Shown: positions 74 to 47,484 of the stretch, piece after piece
How the letters are laid out: every line of letters begins with the position of its first letter
How positions within the stretch are numbered: position 1 is the stretch's first letter
Virus record (IMG/VR): IMGVR_UViG_3300034105_002437
Span: 47,220 to 111,219 of that record
Length of the DNA stretch: 64,000 bases
Reading direction: 5' to 3' (one strand)
DNA from: a virus
Translations under genes and position numbers: made by a program
The notes under the pieces: model-generated
What the model was told of the DNA's origin: nothing
What the model saw: the letters and a program-made list of their open reading frames with translations, nothing else
The model's database searches: none

Positions 74-148
74 GGAGGTATAACTTAACGGCGAAAGTAG
101 CTGGCTTTTAACCAGTAAATCAGAGTTCGATTCTCTGTGCCTCTACCA
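74..148 (+). tRNA. tRNA-Lys(TTT)
   Basis: Cloverleaf with acceptor GGAGGTA/TGCCTCT (two wobbles), anticodon loop CTTTTAA (TTT), TTCGATT T-loop and encoded CCA. First tRNA of the array in this window; bases 1-73 upstream show no gene. Confidence 0.93.
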
Positions 149-153
149 TATAA

Positions 154-220
154 AAACACATTTCAATAGTTTCGACTGTGATGGATAGTTTCTGTTTAGT
201 ACAGTATCCGAAGTGTGTTT
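154..220 (+). ncRNA. Structured hairpin RNA between tRNA-Lys and tRNA-Tyr
   Basis: An 11-bp basal stem (AAACACATTTC at 154-164 with GAAGTGTGTTT at 210-220, one G-U pair) encloses a nested hairpin: GGATA 183-187 with TATCC 205-209, and CTGT 192-195 with ACAG 201-204 closing a 5-nt loop. It has no coding potential and is not a cloverleaf. It may be a small RNA or a processing signal in the tRNA precursor. The structure is read from the sequence; the role is unknown. Confidence 0.5.
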
Positions 221-226
221 CTATAT

Positions 227-319
227 GGAGCAATTGATGCTATGGCGTGTGCATCGGCGGACTGTAAATCCGTCCCCTCCGGGTAAACAATCTTGGTTCG
301 ACTCCAAGTTGCTCCACCA
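227..319 (+). tRNA. tRNA-Tyr(GTA)
   Basis: Acceptor GGAGCAA/TTGCTCC, anticodon GTA, a long class II variable arm as expected for Tyr, T-loop TTCGACT, discriminator A and encoded CCA. Confidence 0.96.
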
Positions 320-509
320 AATCCCGGTACTACTTCCGTTAAAGTAGCGTTTGATTAGCGATAGAGATCCGGTGGCAGAAGACCGTTAGCGGAGTAATCC
401 TGAATCTGATAGGCAGAATCTCACTGCACACAGACTCCGAATAAATGAGATGGACAGAGTAACTGCTCAATTAAGGGCTGGCGTGGAACCCAGTAGCTTA
501 TACTAATTT
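320..509 (+). ncRNA. Long structured spacer in the tRNA array
   Basis: About 190 nt between tRNA-Tyr and tRNA-Asp with no start-led ORF and no cloverleaf. It holds a perfect hairpin CTACTT/AAGTAG (330-335 with 342-346 side, 6-nt loop) and a CGGAGT/ACTCCG pairing across roughly 50 nt. Other spacers in the array are 0-60 nt, so a separate RNA is plausible. No known RNA family was recognised. Confidence 0.35.
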
Positions 510-584
510 GGTCTCAAAGTGTTCATGGACGCACGTATGCCTGTCACGCATAAAGAAGGGGATCGTTACCCCTTGGGACCGCCA
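510..584 (+). tRNA. tRNA-Asp(GTC)
   Basis: Acceptor GGTCTCA/TGGGACC, anticodon stem ATGC/GCAT around loop CTGTCAC (GTC), discriminator G as usual for Asp, CCA encoded. Confidence 0.95.
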
Positions 585-592
585 AGTTTTAT

Positions 593-668
593 TCCGCAGT
601 AGCTCAGTCGGTAGAGTAGATGACTGTTAATCATTTGGTCGGTGGTTCGAGCCCACCCTGTGGAGCCA
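593..668 (+). tRNA. tRNA-Asn(GTT)
   Basis: Acceptor TCCGCAG/CTGTGGA, anticodon GTT, T-loop TTCGAGC, discriminator G (typical for Asn), CCA encoded. Confidence 0.95.
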
Positions 669-676
669 ATTTTTTC

Positions 677-753
677 CCGTGTGTAGCTCAGCTAGGTAGA
701 GCTCTTGGTTTGGGACCAAGTGGTCGCATGTTCGAATCGTGTCACACGGACCA
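677..753 (+). tRNA. tRNA-Pro(TGG)
   Basis: Acceptor CCGTGTG/CACACGG, perfect anticodon stem CTTGG/CCAAG around TTTGGGA (TGG), discriminator A, CCA encoded. Confidence 0.95.
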
Positions 754-762
754 ATTTCGCCT

Positions 763-798
763 TTGTTGACGGCGTATAATAGGATAAGTTGTCAACAA
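763..798 (+). repeat. 8-bp inverted repeat around a -10-like element
   Basis: TTGTTGAC (763-770) and GTCAACAA (791-798) are perfect inverted copies flanking GGCGTATAATAGG, in the spacer between tRNA-Pro and tRNA-Ala. TATAAT at 775-780 resembles a -10 box but there is no clear -35 box 17 bp upstream. It may be an operator or an RNA processing hairpin. Confidence 0.4.
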
Positions 799-806
799 CA
801 AATTTT

Positions 807-881
807 GGGCTGGTAGTGATAATGGGAGCACAGGGGCTTTGCAAGCCTTTAGTCGGGGTTCGATCCCCCGCCGGTCCACCA
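807..881 (+). tRNA. tRNA-Ala(TGC)
   Basis: Acceptor GGGCTGG/CCGGTCC (two wobbles), anticodon stem AGGGC/GCCTT around TTTGCAA (TGC), strong T-stem, discriminator A, CCA encoded. Confidence 0.94.
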
Positions 882-886
882 AATTC

Positions 887-961
887 GGTTCAGTAGCACA
901 GTGGTAGTGCAACTCCTTCATACGGAGTAGGTCGTTGGCTCGTATCCAACCTGAACCACCA
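887..961 (+). tRNA. tRNA-Met/Ile2(CAT), elongator type
   Basis: Perfect acceptor GGTTCAG/CTGAACC, anticodon stem ACTCC/GGAGT around TTCATAC (CAT), CCA encoded. The paired 1-72 position makes this an elongator-type tRNA. A modified CAT (lysidine) would make it Ile2; sequence alone does not decide. Confidence 0.92.
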
Positions 962-965
962 GTAT

Positions 966-1041
966 GGGTCTTTAACTCAGTGAACAGAGTACTTGGCTAC
1001 GAACCAAGAAGTCGTAGGTTTGAATCCTACAAGACCCTCCA
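966..1041 (+). tRNA. tRNA-Arg(ACG)
   Basis: Perfect acceptor GGGTCTT/AAGACCC, anticodon stem CTTGG/CCAAG around CTACGAA (ACG), CCA encoded. Only 4 nt separate it from tRNA-Met. Confidence 0.95.
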
Positions 1042-1267
1042 AGCCGTTCCGCTTTGTTAGCGGATACTGTGACCCACAGGATAGAAGTGAGGTGACTCTC
1101 ACGGGTGGTAGTCTTTAAACCGAAAGGCCGCTGGCAGTGCGATAACGGTCCTGGTCGGGAAGCGGGTGGAGGGTGTGTGTTACAAGGCGTTGAACCAAAC
1201 GGGGAGCCAAGTAACAACGGTGCGAGCTGACACACTAAATTACCGCCGCAGGACGCAGAGCATTTAT
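1042..1267 (+). ncRNA. 226-nt structured non-coding spacer
   Basis: It contains three consecutive perfect hairpins: TCCGCT/AGCGGA (1048-1064, 5-nt loop), CTGTG/CACAG (loop ACC) and GTGAG/CTCAC (6-nt loop). Longer-range pairings follow, such as GTGTGT with ACACAC and CGTTG with CAACG. It is more GC-rich than flanking genes and has no cloverleaf. A discrete non-coding RNA is likely but no family was recognised. Confidence 0.45.
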
Positions 1268-1341
1268 ACCCCGTTAGCTCAAAGGTAGAGCACCCGGCTG
1301 ATAACCGGGAGACAGAGGATCGTTACCTCTACAGGGTACCA
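1268..1341 (+). tRNA. tRNA-Ile(GAT)
   Basis: Anticodon stem CCCGG/CCGGG around CTGATAA (GAT), D-arm GCTC/GAGC, CCA encoded. The acceptor ACCCCGT/ACAGGGT has one C-A mismatch at the fifth pair. Confidence 0.9.
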
Positions 1342-1347
1342 AATTTT

Positions 1348-1421
1348 TTCTCGCTGGTGTAATGGCAGCATAGCGGTCTCCAAAACCGTTGGTTGGGGTT
1401 CGAGTCCCTAGCGGGAAGCCA
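1348..1421 (+). tRNA. tRNA-Trp(CCA)
   Basis: Acceptor TTCTCGC/GCGGGAA, anticodon loop CTCCAAA (CCA), discriminator G (the Trp identity base), encoded CCA. It ends 21 nt before the next start codon. Confidence 0.94.
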
Positions 1422-1442
1422 ATTTTTATAAAGGTGATTGAT

Positions 1443-1931
1443 ATGAAAAAGTTCGACATAGAAGAAGTCAAAACATTCCTTGCAAAACAAGGACAAGATA
1501 CCAAAGTGTACCTTGGTGCTGACTCTGAAAGAATTAGAGTTAACGGTGTTTGGTATGCTGATTATGCTTTGGCTGTCGTAGTTCATATTGATGGCCGCCA
1601 CGGTTGTAAGATATTTGGTTATGTAGATAGAGAAATGGATTATGACCATAAGAAAAGTAAACCTGCTATGCGTCTGATGACAGAAGTATACAAGGTTTCA
1701 GAATTGTTCCAAAACTTGGCTGACGTATTAGAAGATTTTCATGTTGAAGTTCATTTGGACTTGAACAAATCTGATGAATTCGGAAGTTCATGTGTTGTGC
1801 AACAAGCAATAGGTTATATCAAAGGTACATGTAACATGACACCGATGGTTAAACCAGATGCACCTGCTGCTAGTTTCTGTGCCGATAGATTGAAAAGAAT
1901 CTTGGCCGAACAAGAAGCAGTGCATGTCTAA
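1443..1931 (+). CDS. YkuK/DUF458-like RNase H-fold protein
   Basis: 162-residue soluble protein. The start at 1443 follows an AAAGGTGAT ribosome-binding site; an earlier in-frame ATG lies inside tRNA-Trp. The N-terminal YLGADSERI and the later VHLDLN resemble the acidic strands of the DUF458/YkuK family, predicted RNase H-like nucleases. It sits alone among tRNA genes, which would suit a role in RNA turnover, but that is inference. The family call is from memory of its pattern. Confidence 0.6.
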   Translation: MKKFDIEEVKTFLAKQGQDTKVYLGADSERIRVNGVWYADYALAVVVHIDGRHGCKIFGYVDREMDYDHKKSKPAMRLMTEVYKVSELFQNLADVLEDFHVEVHLDLNKSDEFGSSCVVQQAIGYIKGTCNMTPMVKPDAPAASFCADRLKRILAEQEAVHV

Positions 1932-1937
1932 CAGACC

Positions 1938-2045
1938 CCCAAAGTAATTAAGTTTACTTTGGGCAGTGCTTAGTGTAGTGGTCTGCACCTCTCGCTGTGA
2001 CCGAGATAGTATGAGTTCGATCCTCATAGTGCTGCCCAAAGTAAA
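1938..2045 (+). repeat. Repeat pair extending the tRNA-His acceptor stem
   Basis: TTTACTTTGGG just before the tRNA-His body and CCCAAAGTAAA overlapping its 3' end are perfect complements, so the acceptor helix can run about 11 bp past the normal end. CCCAAAGTAA at 1938-1947 can instead pair with TTACTTTGGG at 1954-1963, forming a competing upstream hairpin. This could control 5' processing. Seen directly; function unknown. Confidence 0.6.
1963..2038 (+). tRNA. tRNA-His(GTG)
   Basis: Anticodon loop CTGTGAC (GTG). The encoded G at -1 (1963) can pair with C73, the hallmark of tRNA-His. Acceptor CAGTGCT/AGTGCTG, T-loop TTCGATC, CCA encoded at 2036-2038. Confidence 0.93.
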
Positions 2046-2048
2046 TTT

Positions 2049-2123
2049 GCCTTGTTAACTCAGCGGTAGAGTGTCTCCCTTACAAGGAGAAGGTCGGCGG
2101 TTCGATCCCGTCACAAGGTACCA
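2049..2123 (+). tRNA. tRNA-Val(TAC)
   Basis: Acceptor GCCTTGT/ACAAGGT, perfect anticodon stem TCTCC/GGAGA around CTTACAA (TAC), CCA encoded. Confidence 0.95.
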
Positions 2124-2127
2124 ACAT

Positions 2128-2203
2128 GCTGCTTTAGCTGATGTGGTCATAGCGCTGGTTTGAAGAACCAGTGAAAGAGGTTCGATCCCTCTAGGCAGCA
2201 CCA
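2128..2203 (+). tRNA. tRNA-Phe(GAA)
   Basis: Acceptor GCTGCTT/AGGCAGC, anticodon stem CTGGT/ACCAG around TTGAAGA (GAA), T-loop TTCGATC, CCA encoded. Confidence 0.94.
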
Positions 2204-2211
2204 ATTATTAT

Positions 2212-2288
2212 ACCCAAGTGACGAAATTGGCAAACGTGTCTCTCTCAAAAGGAGAATTTTGTGGGTTCGAATCCCATCTTGGGTACCA
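2212..2288 (+). tRNA. tRNA-Leu(CAA) with a short variable loop
   Basis: Acceptor ACCCAAG/CTTGGGT, anticodon loop CTCAAAA (CAA), discriminator A, CCA encoded. The D-arm is Leu-like (GAAATTGGCA). The variable region is only about five bases (ATTTT) instead of the long class II arm usual for bacterial Leu tRNAs. Confidence 0.88.
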
Positions 2289-2289
2289 T

Positions 2290-2363
2290 GCTCTCATAGT
2301 ATAATGGCATTACACATCCTTGGTAAGGATGAAAACCAAGTTCAATCCTTGGTGGGAGCACCA
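2290..2363 (+). tRNA. tRNA-Thr(GGT)
   Basis: Acceptor GCTCTCA/TGGGAGC, anticodon stem CATCC/GGATG around TTGGTAA (GGT), discriminator A, CCA encoded. A possible minus-strand ORF ends inside it. Confidence 0.93.
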
Positions 2364-2512
2364 ATATTTTTTATTTCATCCAGTACAAAAAGCTGTTGCC
2401 TTGTTTCAAAGGATGGTGTAAAATCATTGCTGTTGGTGAATGATTTTGTTTCTTGATATGATTCCAATTTATTGGCCATATCGTATAAATCTTTAACATA
2501 ATTTTTTTCCAT
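2342..2512 (-). CDS. Possible 56-residue minus-strand protein in the tRNA array
   Basis: Open frame beginning MEKNYVKDLYDMANKLES, of ordinary hydrophilic composition, not recognised. It fills the only large gap between tRNAs on this side. AATAAATACTT lies directly before the ATG and resembles the late-promoter core of this phage, but no ribosome-binding site is visible and the 3' end overlaps tRNA-Thr. It may be a real late gene or chance. Confidence 0.3.
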   Translation of the reverse strand: MEKNYVKDLYDMANKLESYQETKSFTNSNDFTPSFETRQQLFVLDEIKNIGAPTKD

Positions 2513-2525
2513 AGAAGTATTTATT

Positions 2526-2602
2526 GCCCCGGTGACGGAATTGGTATACGTGTTGGTCTTAGAAGCCAAATTTTGAGAGTTCGAGTCTCTCCTGGGGCAC
2601 CA
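2526..2602 (+). tRNA. tRNA-Leu(TAG) with a short variable loop
   Basis: Acceptor GCCCCGG/CTGGGGC, anticodon stem TTGGT/GCCAA around CTTAGAA (TAG), discriminator A, CCA encoded. Like tRNA-Leu(CAA) it has a five-base variable loop (ATTTT), unlike the class II tRNA-Leu(TAA) at 2762. Confidence 0.9.
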
Positions 2603-2610
2603 AGTTTTTA

Positions 2611-2678
2611 GTTACAGTCAGTACTGTGGGAAGTACAGGTGGACAACACCAGGACAAGGTTCGAATCCAAACTGTAAT
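2611..2678 (+). pseudogene. Degenerate tRNA-like element
   Basis: A perfect 7-bp acceptor TTACAGT/ACTGTAA, a D-stem GTAC/GTAC and a TTCGAAT T-loop are present. The T-stem keeps only two pairs, the anticodon arm (GGTG/CACC) has no U33 in a normal loop, and no CCA is encoded. It lies in line with real tRNA genes, so it is probably a decayed tRNA or a tRNA-like RNA. Confidence 0.5.
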
Positions 2679-2682
2679 TTTT

Positions 2683-2757
2683 CTGGCGTTAGTATAATGG
2701 ACAATACAGTAGGCTTCTACCCTTCTAATGGGAGTTCGATTCTCTCACGCCGGACCA
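2683..2757 (+). tRNA. tRNA-Arg(TCT)
   Basis: Acceptor CTGGCGT/ACGCCGG, anticodon loop CTTCTAC (TCT), one mismatch in the anticodon stem, T-loop TTCGATT, CCA encoded. Confidence 0.9.
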
Positions 2758-2761
2758 GATT

Positions 2762-2844
2762 GCGAGTATGGTGGAATAGGTAGACACAAGAGACTTAAAA
2801 TCTCTCGCTTCGGCGTACCGGTTCGATTCCGGTTACTCGTACCA
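2762..2844 (+). tRNA. tRNA-Leu(TAA), class II
   Basis: Acceptor GCGAGTA/TACTCGT, anticodon stem AGAGA/TCTCT around CTTAAAA (TAA), long variable arm CGCTTCGGCG with a TTCG loop, discriminator A, CCA encoded. Confidence 0.95.
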
Positions 2845-2862
2845 AGTATACCAAAATATTGG

Positions 2863-2891
2863 TTGACAGTTGAATAGAAAGCATATATAAT
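2863..2891 (+). promoter_or_regulatory. Consensus sigma70 promoter for the distal tRNA genes
   Basis: TTGACA (2863-2868), a 17-bp spacer and TATAAT (2886-2891): full consensus on both boxes. Predicted start just upstream of tRNA-Gly(GCC). Confidence 0.85.
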
Positions 2892-2900
2892 AACTCTATT

Positions 2901-2975
2901 GCGGGTATGGTGCTAGTGGTAACACAAGACCTTGCCAAGGTTTAGTTGTGAGTTCGATTCTCACTACCCGCTCCA
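2901..2975 (+). tRNA. tRNA-Gly(GCC)
   Basis: Perfect acceptor GCGGGTA/TACCCGC, anticodon GCC in a CCTTGCCAAGG arm, discriminator T (usual for Gly), CCA encoded. Confidence 0.95.
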
Positions 2976-2980
2976 GATTC

Positions 2981-3054
2981 GCCCTATTAGTATAATGGTA
3001 TTACACCTGTTTTGTAATCAGGTTACGGCAGTTCGATTCTGTCATGGGGCACCA
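2981..3054 (+). tRNA. tRNA-Thr(TGT)
   Basis: Acceptor GCCCTAT/ATGGGGC, anticodon loop TTTGTAA (TGT) on a CCTG/CAGG stem, discriminator A, CCA encoded. Confidence 0.94.
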
Positions 3055-3062
3055 AATAAGTA

Positions 3063-3091
3063 TTGACTACAACAGATTTTTAGTGTATAAT
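3063..3091 (+). promoter_or_regulatory. Sigma70-like promoter upstream of tRNA-Gly(TCC)
   Basis: TTGACT (3063-3068), 17-bp spacer, TATAAT (3086-3091). It would transcribe tRNA-Gly(TCC), the degenerate tRNA and the co-chaperonin gene. Confidence 0.8.
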
Positions 3092-3100
3092 AGTTTATGT

Positions 3101-3174
3101 GCGGGATTAGTTTAATGGTAAAACAGCAGATTTCCAATCTTCGGTCATCAGTTCGATTCTGATATCCCGCTCCA
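3101..3174 (+). tRNA. tRNA-Gly(TCC)
   Basis: Perfect acceptor GCGGGAT/ATCCCGC, anticodon arm AGATTTCCAATCT (TCC), discriminator T, CCA encoded. Confidence 0.95.
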
Positions 3175-20632: not shown

Positions 20633-20640
20633 TATAAATA
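20633..20640 (+). promoter_or_regulatory. T4-type late promoter
   Basis: Exact TATAAATA in an intergenic region, 45 bases before the first capsid-targeted gene. It opens the late block 20685-28806. Confidence 0.75.
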
Positions 20641-20684: not shown

Positions 20685-21887
20685 ATGTTATCTTTCAAGA
20701 GCTTTTTAACCGAACAAGAGGATCCCGATGAGGGCGCCAGCCGTCAGATTAAACACCTGACGCATGTGGAAGACCGTCCCCTACAAACAGGTGAAAAAGG
20801 CACAGCACATGCTATCAAGTCATTGACAGCTTCAGCTGAACACATCAAGGCAGGTAAGAAGACTTCCGAACTTACCACAAAATATGATGGTTCACCTGCA
20901 CTTGTTTATGGTCACCATCCAACCACTGGTAAATTCTTTGTTGCATCCAAATCAGCTTTCAACAAGACACCAAAGATTAACTATACACCAAAAGACATTG
21001 ATAAGAACCACGGACACGCACCTGGCCTAGCTGCCAAGTTAAAAGATGCGCTGACTCATTTGTTCAAGACTTCACCTAAACAAGGTGTTTATCAAGGTGA
21101 TATGATGTTTGGTACCGACAAGGGTGATAAACAACAAGAGAAAAATGGCGGACATTCTTTCCATCCAAATCCGTCTGGTCTAACTTATACTGCTCACGGC
21201 CAACATGCTGCCGATGTTAAGAAAGCAAAAATTGGTGTTGTGACACACTTGTCATATCAAGGTAAAGATGCAGGCAATTTAAATGTATCACACGAAGTTG
21301 ACCATGAAAACTTCAAGAAACATCCAGATGTATTCTCAGTTGATCCAAGAATGGACACAGCAAAAGTTCATTTCAGTCCAGAAGAACAAAAGAAATTCAA
21401 CAAACATATTGCAATGGCTCAATCGGTACATGACACCCATGGTGATGACATGTATGCTGGTACAAAAGCACATCATGGAGTTGGTGGTTCATTGGAAACC
21501 TATATGAATCATACAGTTAGAACAAGTGAAGAACCCAATCATCAAAACTTTAAGAATTGGTTAGAAACCGATACAAATAAAAAAATTGATAAACTTAAAG
21601 TTGAAAAGAATCGTACAGCCAAACAAGCTGATCTTAAAGCTGAACTTGGTAAAATTGAAAGAAATAAAAAACACTATAACAATGTATTTAAAATGCATGG
21701 CCATTTACAAAAGGCCAAAGATACTCTCATTGGTGTTATGAATCAACACCAAGAATTTCAACACTCACATGCCGGTGAAGATGCTAATCCAGAAGGATAT
21801 GTTTTCCATCACAATAACGAATCGGACAAATTTGTTAATCGTGCGGAATTCTCTAAGAGAAATTTTGCTGGGATCAGAAACATATGA
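20685..21887 (+). CDS. Ligase-like nucleotidyltransferase with capsid-targeting N-terminus
   Basis: 400 residues. Residues 1-10, MLSFKSFLTE, match the T4 capsid-targeting pattern (short, Phe-rich, ending L-x-E, a gp21-type cut site). The body has covalent-nucleotidyltransferase motifs: I TKYDGSP, a GDMM motif and IV NPEGYVFHH, followed by a Lys/Arg-rich stretch. It could join or cap nucleic acid using a Lys-NMP intermediate. An RNA or DNA ligase packaged into the head is my reading; activity is not proven. The start follows a late promoter. Confidence 0.65.
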   Translation: MLSFKSFLTEQEDPDEGASRQIKHLTHVEDRPLQTGEKGTAHAIKSLTASAEHIKAGKKTSELTTKYDGSPALVYGHHPTTGKFFVASKSAFNKTPKINYTPKDIDKNHGHAPGLAAKLKDALTHLFKTSPKQGVYQGDMMFGTDKGDKQQEKNGGHSFHPNPSGLTYTAHGQHAADVKKAKIGVVTHLSYQGKDAGNLNVSHEVDHENFKKHPDVFSVDPRMDTAKVHFSPEEQKKFNKHIAMAQSVHDTHGDDMYAGTKAHHGVGGSLETYMNHTVRTSEEPNHQNFKNWLETDTNKKIDKLKVEKNRTAKQADLKAELGKIERNKKHYNNVFKMHGHLQKAKDTLIGVMNQHQEFQHSHAGEDANPEGYVFHHNNESDKFVNRAEFSKRNFAGIRNI

Positions 21888-24199: not shown

Positions 24200-25087
24200 A
24201 TGATAGACCTAAGAAAAAAAGATGACATGATTGCAGCAATTGAACAAATTCTTCAACAAGAAGCACTCAAGGGCAATCAACATTTAATTGATAAAAATAA
24301 AAACAACAAAGTTGATCCAGAAGATTTTAAAATTCTTCGTGGTGAAAAGAAAACTGTCAAAGAAGAAGAAACTGTTGATGAAGGCATCAAAGAACTTGCC
24401 AAGAAAGCTTTCAAAGCAGTTACTGGTGGTTCAGATGAAGACCAACGTAAAGACCTACAACGCAAGATGGGTCTACCACAAACTGGTAAGAAACCAACTC
24501 CTCAAAAAGAAGAAGTTGTTGATGAAAGCCTACTAGGCCAATTGAGAGATCGTGGTAATGTTGCTACAGGTCAAAAACAACAAGATCGTAAGAATTTTGA
24601 TACAAATACTGGTGCTGCATTAAAACCAAATAGCACAATTAGTGGTATTAGAGCTAAGATGCAAAACAAAGTCCAAGAGGAATCTGAACAAATTGATGAG
24701 TTGTCTAAAAGCACTCTTGGTTCTTATATTAAAAAAGCAGCTGCTGACTCCACAATTTCTCGTAAAATTGGAGCTGATTTTGAAAATCGAGCAAATTCAA
24801 AAAGAAGTCCTGCAATGAAAGATGCATCTACAGCACTTTCAGATAAGTTTAAATCCGATTCACGTAAACGTAAAGCTAATGTCGATAAAGCAGTTGATCG
24901 TTTAACAAAAGAAGAAAAACAACCAAAAACTCTCCGCCAATTTAAAGAAGGCTGGGAAGAAATGATGGCCGATGTTAAGAAACGTGCAGAGCCAAAACCA
25001 AATGGTGGTTCAGGTGTCAAACAAGGTTCTCGTTACGGTGGTTCTAAACAAAAAGACACACCAGAACAGGACACAGAAAAAAAGTAA
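24200..25087 (+). CDS. Charged internal/scaffold-like protein with repeated cleavage-like motifs (0 frame)
   Basis: 295 residues in frame 0. EETVDEGIKE, EEVVDESLLG and SEQIDELSKS are repeated [IV]-D-E motifs that resemble T4 prohead-protease sites ([LI]xE). DKNKNNKVDPED near residue 30 fits an EF-hand calcium loop. It ends at a TAA directly after A AAA AAG, and a further 54 codons continue in the -1 frame. Strong ribosome-binding site GGAG before ATG. Confidence 0.7.
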   Translation: MIDLRKKDDMIAAIEQILQQEALKGNQHLIDKNKNNKVDPEDFKILRGEKKTVKEEETVDEGIKELAKKAFKAVTGGSDEDQRKDLQRKMGLPQTGKKPTPQKEEVVDESLLGQLRDRGNVATGQKQQDRKNFDTNTGAALKPNSTISGIRAKMQNKVQEESEQIDELSKSTLGSYIKKAAADSTISRKIGADFENRANSKRSPAMKDASTALSDKFKSDSRKRKANVDKAVDRLTKEEKQPKTLRQFKEGWEEMMADVKKRAEPKPNGGSGVKQGSRYGGSKQKDTPEQDTEKK

Positions 25088-25128
25088 CTGAGGCAAAAGG
25101 ACCAACCAGTCAGGAAGACGGACCTTTT
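25068..25128 (+). promoter_or_regulatory. Candidate programmed -1 ribosomal frameshift site
   Basis: Slippery heptamer A AAA AAG at 25078-25084 is in the zero frame and directly followed by TAA; it is the same heptamer as E. coli dnaX. AGGA (25068-25071) lies six bases upstream as a possible internal Shine-Dalgarno. Ten bases downstream AAAAGGACC (25095-25103) can pair with GGACCTTTT (25120-25128) with one A-A mismatch. Confidence 0.65.
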
Positions 25129-25248
25129 GTCTCTAACATCAATGATGCAGAAGATTTGAAGCCATTGAATCACGCAAGATACTTGGCCAAAAAATCTTTG
25201 AAAAGAGTTAAGAACGAAATGATGGGTAAAGCAGGTACATCAGAATAA
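25084..25248 (+). CDS. -1 frame C-terminal extension of the preceding gene
   Basis: 54 codons (VTEAKGPTSQ to GKAGTSE) open in the -1 frame right from the slippery site, ending TAA 25246-25248. Residues DAEDLKPLNHARYLAKKS have normal coding character and resemble C-termini I remember from phage head-associated proteins. There is no separate start codon or ribosome-binding site suited to it. The fused product would be 349 residues. A mutation or sequencing error at the A-run is the alternative. Confidence 0.6.
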   Translation, partial: VTEAKGPTSQEDGPFVSNINDAEDLKPLNHARYLAKKSLKRVKNEMMGKAGTSE

Positions 25249-47215: not shown

Positions 47216-47484
47216 AAAAATTTGCAATCGCAGGTACATCCAGTCAGTTTTATGATTGGATGCGAAACAATGGCCGTTCTCATACCGATTGGATTTATGT
47301 GAGTGGACTTGATACTATCAGAGGTACCAGTAATCCACACGGTATGTTCATTGGTACCTGGTATGAAAGACCTGATATGCTAGAAGTGGTACATATGCTC
47401 AGACTTTGTACACACATAAAAAATGAGAAACTGGATGAAGTGTTCCAGGTGTATATGAACTATAGATTGGGATTAGAAGGATGA
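47212..47484 (+). CDS. Hypothetical protein
   Basis: 90 residues from GTG 47212 (GTGA overlap). MKKFAIAGTSSQFYDWMRNN resembles a Rossmann-like start but is too short to judge. Confidence 0.55.
   Translation: MKKFAIAGTSSQFYDWMRNNGRSHTDWIYVSGLDTIRGTSNPHGMFIGTWYERPDMLEVVHMLRLCTHIKNEKLDEVFQVYMNYRLGLEG

Follow-up and report, generated by a model that had tools for sequence, protein, structure and literature searches.

The -1 frameshift signal of the E. coli dnaX gene contains a 5-nt AGUGA linker and a stem of 10-11 bp located 11-12 nt from the P-site codon (PMC7282821), and a Shine-Dalgarno (SD)-like stimulator is found upstream (PMC5009743). Of the sites of this kind tested in E. coli, A_AAA_AAG shifts most readily, and the SD-like elements of -1 sites lie 9-14 nt upstream (PMC5009743). 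The dnaX genes of some bacteria have a reversed layout, with the stop codon of the short product directly after the shift site (PMC5009743). Polymerase slippage is known to occur on runs of nine or more As (PMC5009743). The tail chaperones of T4-like phages are reported to be made without frameshifting, according to Vladimirov 2022 as cited in PMC10885494. The T4 protease gp21 cleaves after L/I-X-E (PMC9026906).

Here a gene from a T4-like phage is compared with these systems. It is located in a window of 64,000 nucleotides (positions 47,220 to 111,219 of the IMG/VR virus record IMGVR_UViG_3300034105_002437), and all coordinates given without a label are those of this window, plus strand. The gene very probably carries a programmed -1 ribosomal frameshift of the dnaX type, where the slippage itself and any ratio of the products are predicted from the sequence and its conservation. 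A preliminary description of the window had proposed such a frameshift, and the proposal gains support from the conserved A7G tract, its phase and the TAA stop, as well as from the single-frame form of distant relatives.

Results and Discussion

The zero-frame gene and its context

The zero-frame gene (24200-25087) starts with an ATG preceded by a GGAG ribosome-binding site and encodes 295 amino acid residues. Its frame of 295 codons ends with GAA (25076), AAA (25079) and AAG (25082), followed by TAA (25085), exactly as first described. The product appears to be a modular late protein with EF-hand-like and repeated modules. It matches PHROG 5709, a family of unknown function (1.5e-7), and the match to EF-hand_7 is weak and below the cut-off; family searches of the protein gave matches only to families of unknown function. 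EF-hand-like loops (DKNKNNKID) are present in this strongly modular protein in the window and in the relatives, and the repeated modules are preceded by motifs of the EEVEQIDE type. A search of the GenBank phages with the 295-aa protein gave no match, and with the protein of a relative the match was limited to a single module, in Prochlorococcus phage P-TIM68.

The T4-like character of the record follows from its DNA polymerase, which is about 50% identical to cyanophage polymerases, and homologues of terminase, portal, head maturation protease, scaffold and major head protein are also present. A motif resembling the T4-type late promoter, TATAAATA, is located at 20633-20640, upstream of the gene block containing the frameshift gene and 52 bp before the ORF at 20685. 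Elsewhere in the record this motif is also found ahead of gp22 and ahead of the gene that precedes gp21; the count of TATAAATA within the window is not above chance on its own. The neighboring genes code for DUF6267, a cytidylyltransferase-like protein, DUF6321 and a 526-aa protein of unknown function, followed by spanin-like and endolysin genes. The motif at 20633 and the downstream lysis genes agree with the earlier assignment of the gene as late. A tail assembly chaperone of the gpG/gpGT type was considered for the frameshift gene and rejected: no chaperone family was matched, and the neighborhood, where a chaperone gene would have a tape-measure gene just downstream, consists of DUF6321, the 526-aa protein and the lysis genes.

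The slippery site and the -1 frame

The heptamer A_AAA_AAG occupies positions 25078-25084 within an A7G tract. It sits in the X_XXY_YYZ phase of the zero frame and abuts the stop codon TAA (25085-25087) on its 3' side. The -1 frame extension spans 25084-25248. Its first codon, Val, is located at 25084-25086, and the frame stays open for 54 codons until the TAA at 25246-25248, in accordance with the original reading of this frame; the predicted products of 295 and 349 residues agree with both frames. The lack of a start codon for the extension was likewise borne out, with neither ATG, GTG nor TTG in its codons 1-24. Only here in the 111-kb record does an in-phase A_AAA_AAG heptamer abut a stop codon and lead into a long -1 frame other than that of a neighboring gene. 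As a separate observation, an in-phase A_AAA_AAG is also found in this record in the gene for the large terminase subunit, five codons before its stop (L249:3025), and the -1 frame there runs about 30 codons beyond the stop of that gene.

Relatives and evolution of the junction

Single-protein scans of IMG/VR, with either the zero-frame protein or the extension as query, yielded many relatives. A pattern scan with AAAAAAGTRAMTGAGGC had many unrelated loci among the matches listed, and the counts given here are based on loci confirmed by tblastn instead. The extension was found in 54 loci, of which 51 have the A7 tract with the frame break and three (L118-L120) are single-frame. All 51 A7 contigs contain the junction GA7GTAA[AC]TGAGGCAAA with the heptamer in the same phase, the invariant TAA and the same -1 extension. 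Thus every contig with a close homologue of the extension keeps both the heptamer and the -1 frame, one of the two outcomes by which the preliminary description proposed to judge the site. The other, single-frame fusion, was found among the more distant relatives. Removal of duplicates leaves 31 distinct A7 variants. It is important to note that the 51 contigs are not independent events, since the A7 variants form one clade and some of the contigs may have been resampled from the same waters.

The -1 frame is coding and is under purifying selection. For 11 representatives, dN/dS after the stem comes to 0.24 when the -1 frame is read, against 3.2 for the zero frame and 1.3 for the third frame, in line with the statement that the -1 frame reads as normal protein. 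The length of the zero-frame protein varies from 156 to 396 residues across the 31 variants, with internal modules gained or lost, and the junction remains constant.

The extension is encoded in a single frame in L038, L055, L067, L068, L072, L118-L120, L236, L243-L245 and L252-L260, and six distinct single-frame forms read A9 in frame. A divergent extension used as query led to 80 loci, nearly all of them single-frame. In L252-L260 the junction is mostly AAA AAA AAA G (A9); slippage on this tract could lead to shortened proteins, which would be the reverse of the arrangement in the window. In three divergent relatives the frame break persists, at A10 in place of A7 and with no stem, and AGG is absent from two of them. 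These A10 tracts (L069:6950-6960, L169:7405-7415 and L211:5459-5469) are candidate transcriptional slippage sites in the same protein family. The three relatives may use polymerase slippage, because runs of nine or more As are known for it. In two further loci the extension domain is a separate gene with its own ATG. This stand-alone gene of 60 aa (L076:6503-6685 and L031:7206-7388) starts with a leader, MKSFKEFKSLME, which is possibly a capsid-targeting and cleavage leader.

Single-frame forms occur widely, and the A7 form in one clade only. This distribution suggests that the frameshift is probably the derived state, that is, a derived way to produce two forms. The extension gave one meaningless match (E = 6) in the GenBank phages, and the GTDB genome scan found no relative of it.

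Elements that may stimulate frameshifting

A stem is predicted between GAGGCAAAAGG (25090-25100) and CCTTTTGTCTC (25123-25133). It contains 11 bp with one G.U pair, has an energy of about -19 kcal/mol and starts 5 nt after the heptamer, which is the dnaX spacing. The pairing of AAAAGGACC with GGACCTTTT proposed initially, at ten bases downstream, has an A.A mismatch inside and forms merely the inner part of this longer stem; it was dropped in favor of the latter. When the 66 nt downstream were shuffled 200 times with dinucleotide content preserved, no shuffle folded as well (z -3.7). Stem energy by itself is modest evidence, because 11% of synonymous-codon resamplings reach the same value, and the case is carried by conservation across the relatives. 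Third codon positions are variable in 6 of the 17 codons of the spacer and stem, compared with 27 of the 32 codons after the stem (Fisher p = 0.001). The covariation test in the A7 clade found none; since the stem is almost invariant, this result neither supports nor denies the pairing. In L104 and L112 a synonymous change GGA to GGT in a glycine codon removes the mismatch above the stem and brings the energy to -26 to -28 kcal/mol, and in L113 one stem pair is lost.

The SD-like AGGA mentioned in the preliminary description is indeed present upstream, at 25068-25071, as a putative stimulator. AGG is found in all 31 A7 variants. Its distance from the heptamer is 10 nt in 18 of them and 7 nt in the other 13, including the window, where the element is short and nearer than the 9-14 nt given for -1 sites (PMC5009743). 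Gln and Lys codons ending in G are a minority in this phage (CAG 52/231, AAG 189/553). The record encodes 28 tRNAs, among which UUU is the only lysine anticodon; the sole lysine tRNA found, tRNA-Lys(UUU), is located at 74-148. The tRNA genes form a cluster covering most amino acids, at 74-3174 of the window and in the preceding L250:9847-15394.

Proposed mechanism and alternative explanations

In the proposed mechanism, tRNA-Lys(UUU) would occupy AAA and AAG of the heptamer as the ribosome ends the 295-codon frame. The stem-loop 5 nt downstream and the upstream AGGA would promote re-pairing one base back, and slow termination at the adjacent UAA might perhaps also aid the slip. The slipped fraction of ribosomes would read 54 more codons, and the 295-aa and 349-aa forms would be produced from one late gene. 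The longer form would gain a flexible linker and a C-terminal helix, starting at a [VILM]-x-E motif.

Transcriptional slippage has to be weighed against this mechanism; here the polymerase would insert an extra A at the A7 tract, and ribosomes would translate the resulting A8 mRNA in a single frame. The site is a pure A tract, and the three A10 relatives keep the frame break without the stem. However, A7 is short, below the length of about nine or more As or Ts that marks such sites, it is never lengthened within the A7 clade, and it is accompanied by features acting on the ribosome, namely the stem at the dnaX distance, AGG, the immediate stop codon and the single lysine tRNA. These make transcriptional slippage improbable in the window. 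With a short, never lengthened tract and signals directed at the ribosome, slippage of the ribosome appears better supported in the A7 clade. The extension could also be translated as a separate small gene, through termination and reinitiation at an internal start codon. The sequences GAGG and AAAGGA do occur after the stop, the domain is a gene with its own ATG in L076 and L031, and TTG is found at -1 codon 25 in 19 of the 31 variants and at codon 28 in 18, about 60% in each case. The TTGs are not conserved, however, and lie behind 24 codons free of ATG, GTG and TTG; conservation of the domain sets in ahead of them, with V-x-E-x-K-x-P, and selection in the -1 frame spans the whole stretch. 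Separate translation is thus very unlikely.

Two further explanations would remove the frameshift altogether. Homopolymers are error-prone and single-frame relatives exist, and the true gene might have A8 and one frame, the tract being a sequencing or assembly error. Six or eight As, which the preliminary description had named as a refuting case, were never seen; the 51 contigs all read A7, and the stem and AGG accompany the tract. Alternatively, the gene might be decaying after a frame-disrupting mutation, the extension being a pseudogene remnant, and the single-frame forms are in fact the common state among the distant relatives. Against such decay, purifying selection still acts on the extension in the split form (dN/dS 0.24), the junction is the same across 31 variants, and no stops within the extension were seen among closed loci. 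Constancy of the junction in the 31 variants, while the zero-frame length varies, effectively rules out both; decay retains a minimal probability and a homopolymer error a still smaller one.

The extension domain and the prohead protease

The structure model of the extension (pTM 0.39) consists of one helix (residues 27-46) and a disordered linker. The codons for V-T-E at the start of the extension (25084-25092) may represent a prohead protease site, with the presumed cut after E. A comparison of 19 extension variants, with identities down to 26%, shows E at position 3 without exception and only V, I, L or M at position 1. This junction motif, [VILM]-x-E, is thus found in 19/19 variants, mostly with V rather than L or I. 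The stand-alone version starts with MKSFKEFKSLME-GRPP, and the domain follows directly after such a motif there too. An S77 protease (G000:25503-25946, 3.8e-34) is encoded in the record, within the gp21 homologue at G000:25446-26090, and a match to PHROG 207, head maturation protease (1.7e-75), is found in the same record. The preliminary description also called the gene head-associated, and it is the prohead-protease-like motifs that point in this direction. A location of the protein in the head is plausible, with a probability somewhat below even. Release of the C-terminal piece by the protease is a reasonable idea, but on balance rather unlikely. Over the zero-frame protein, enrichment of [LIVM]xE is not significant (6 compared with 4.3 expected), and because of this a reading of the entire protein as a processed polyprotein is still speculative.

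The frameshift would most likely set the number of copies of a modular, putatively capsid-internal protein that carry, or deliver, the C-terminal piece. If the piece is released, the cut after VTE would give a peptide beginning AKGPTSQEDGPF, and a fixed sub-stoichiometric number of helical peptides of about 51 residues would be packaged with the modular internal protein. This would represent a gag-pol-like logic in a T4-like phage. Among the relatives, one device would have been exchanged for another: ribosomal slippage (A7 with the stem), probable polymerase slippage (A10) or plain fusion. The combined proposal, that the frameshift doses a peptide cut off by the prohead protease at V(T/N)E|A inside the capsid and that relatives exchange the device, is slightly less likely again than release as such.

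Comparison with known systems

The site would represent a dnaX-like -1 frameshift conserved within one gene family of uncultured T4-like phages. For this group, frameshifting at its usual place, the tail chaperones, is reported absent by the work cited above. The mechanism is already known; the gene family and the phage group are new for it. The extension will escape standard annotation in all these genomes. The relatives form a natural series of single-frame fusion, A10 break without a stem, and A7 break with the stem and SD-like element, which allows the gain of a ribosomal frameshift signal to be traced. The protease-like motif at the junction leads to a specific proposal for the purpose of the two forms.

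The phage gene and E. coli dnaX share A_AAA_AAG, the 5-nt spacer, a stem of 10-11 bp, the upstream SD-like element and a single tRNA-Lys(UUU), and the stop abutting the heptamer matches the reversed layout of dnaX in some bacteria. However, the SD-like element of the phage is shorter and nearer, the gene belongs to a phage structural region and does not code for a polymerase subunit, and here the frameshift gives the longer product. With the capsid proteins of T3/T7 (gene 10), Lactobacillus phage A2 and Listeria A118/A500 (PMC5009743), the gene has in common a late protein, a -1 C-terminal extension and a shift near the end of the frame. Unlike them, it does not code for the major capsid protein and belongs to a T4-like phage, and the slippery site differs from that of T7. 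Its extension is a short helix with a protease-like motif rather than an Ig-like domain. Like that of the gpG/gpGT tail assembly chaperone, the gene is a late phage gene with a -1 slip close to its end. It also resembles the T4 internal proteins and gp21 substrates, with hydrophobic-x-E at a domain junction of a late-looking gene (PMC9026906); homology of the window protein to the T4 internal proteins was not found. Homologues of gp21, gp22 and gp23 are present in the record, as in T4. In contrast to the T4 gp21 substrates, with their L/I, V is the commoner residue at the junction, and capsid location and cleavage are here predictions.
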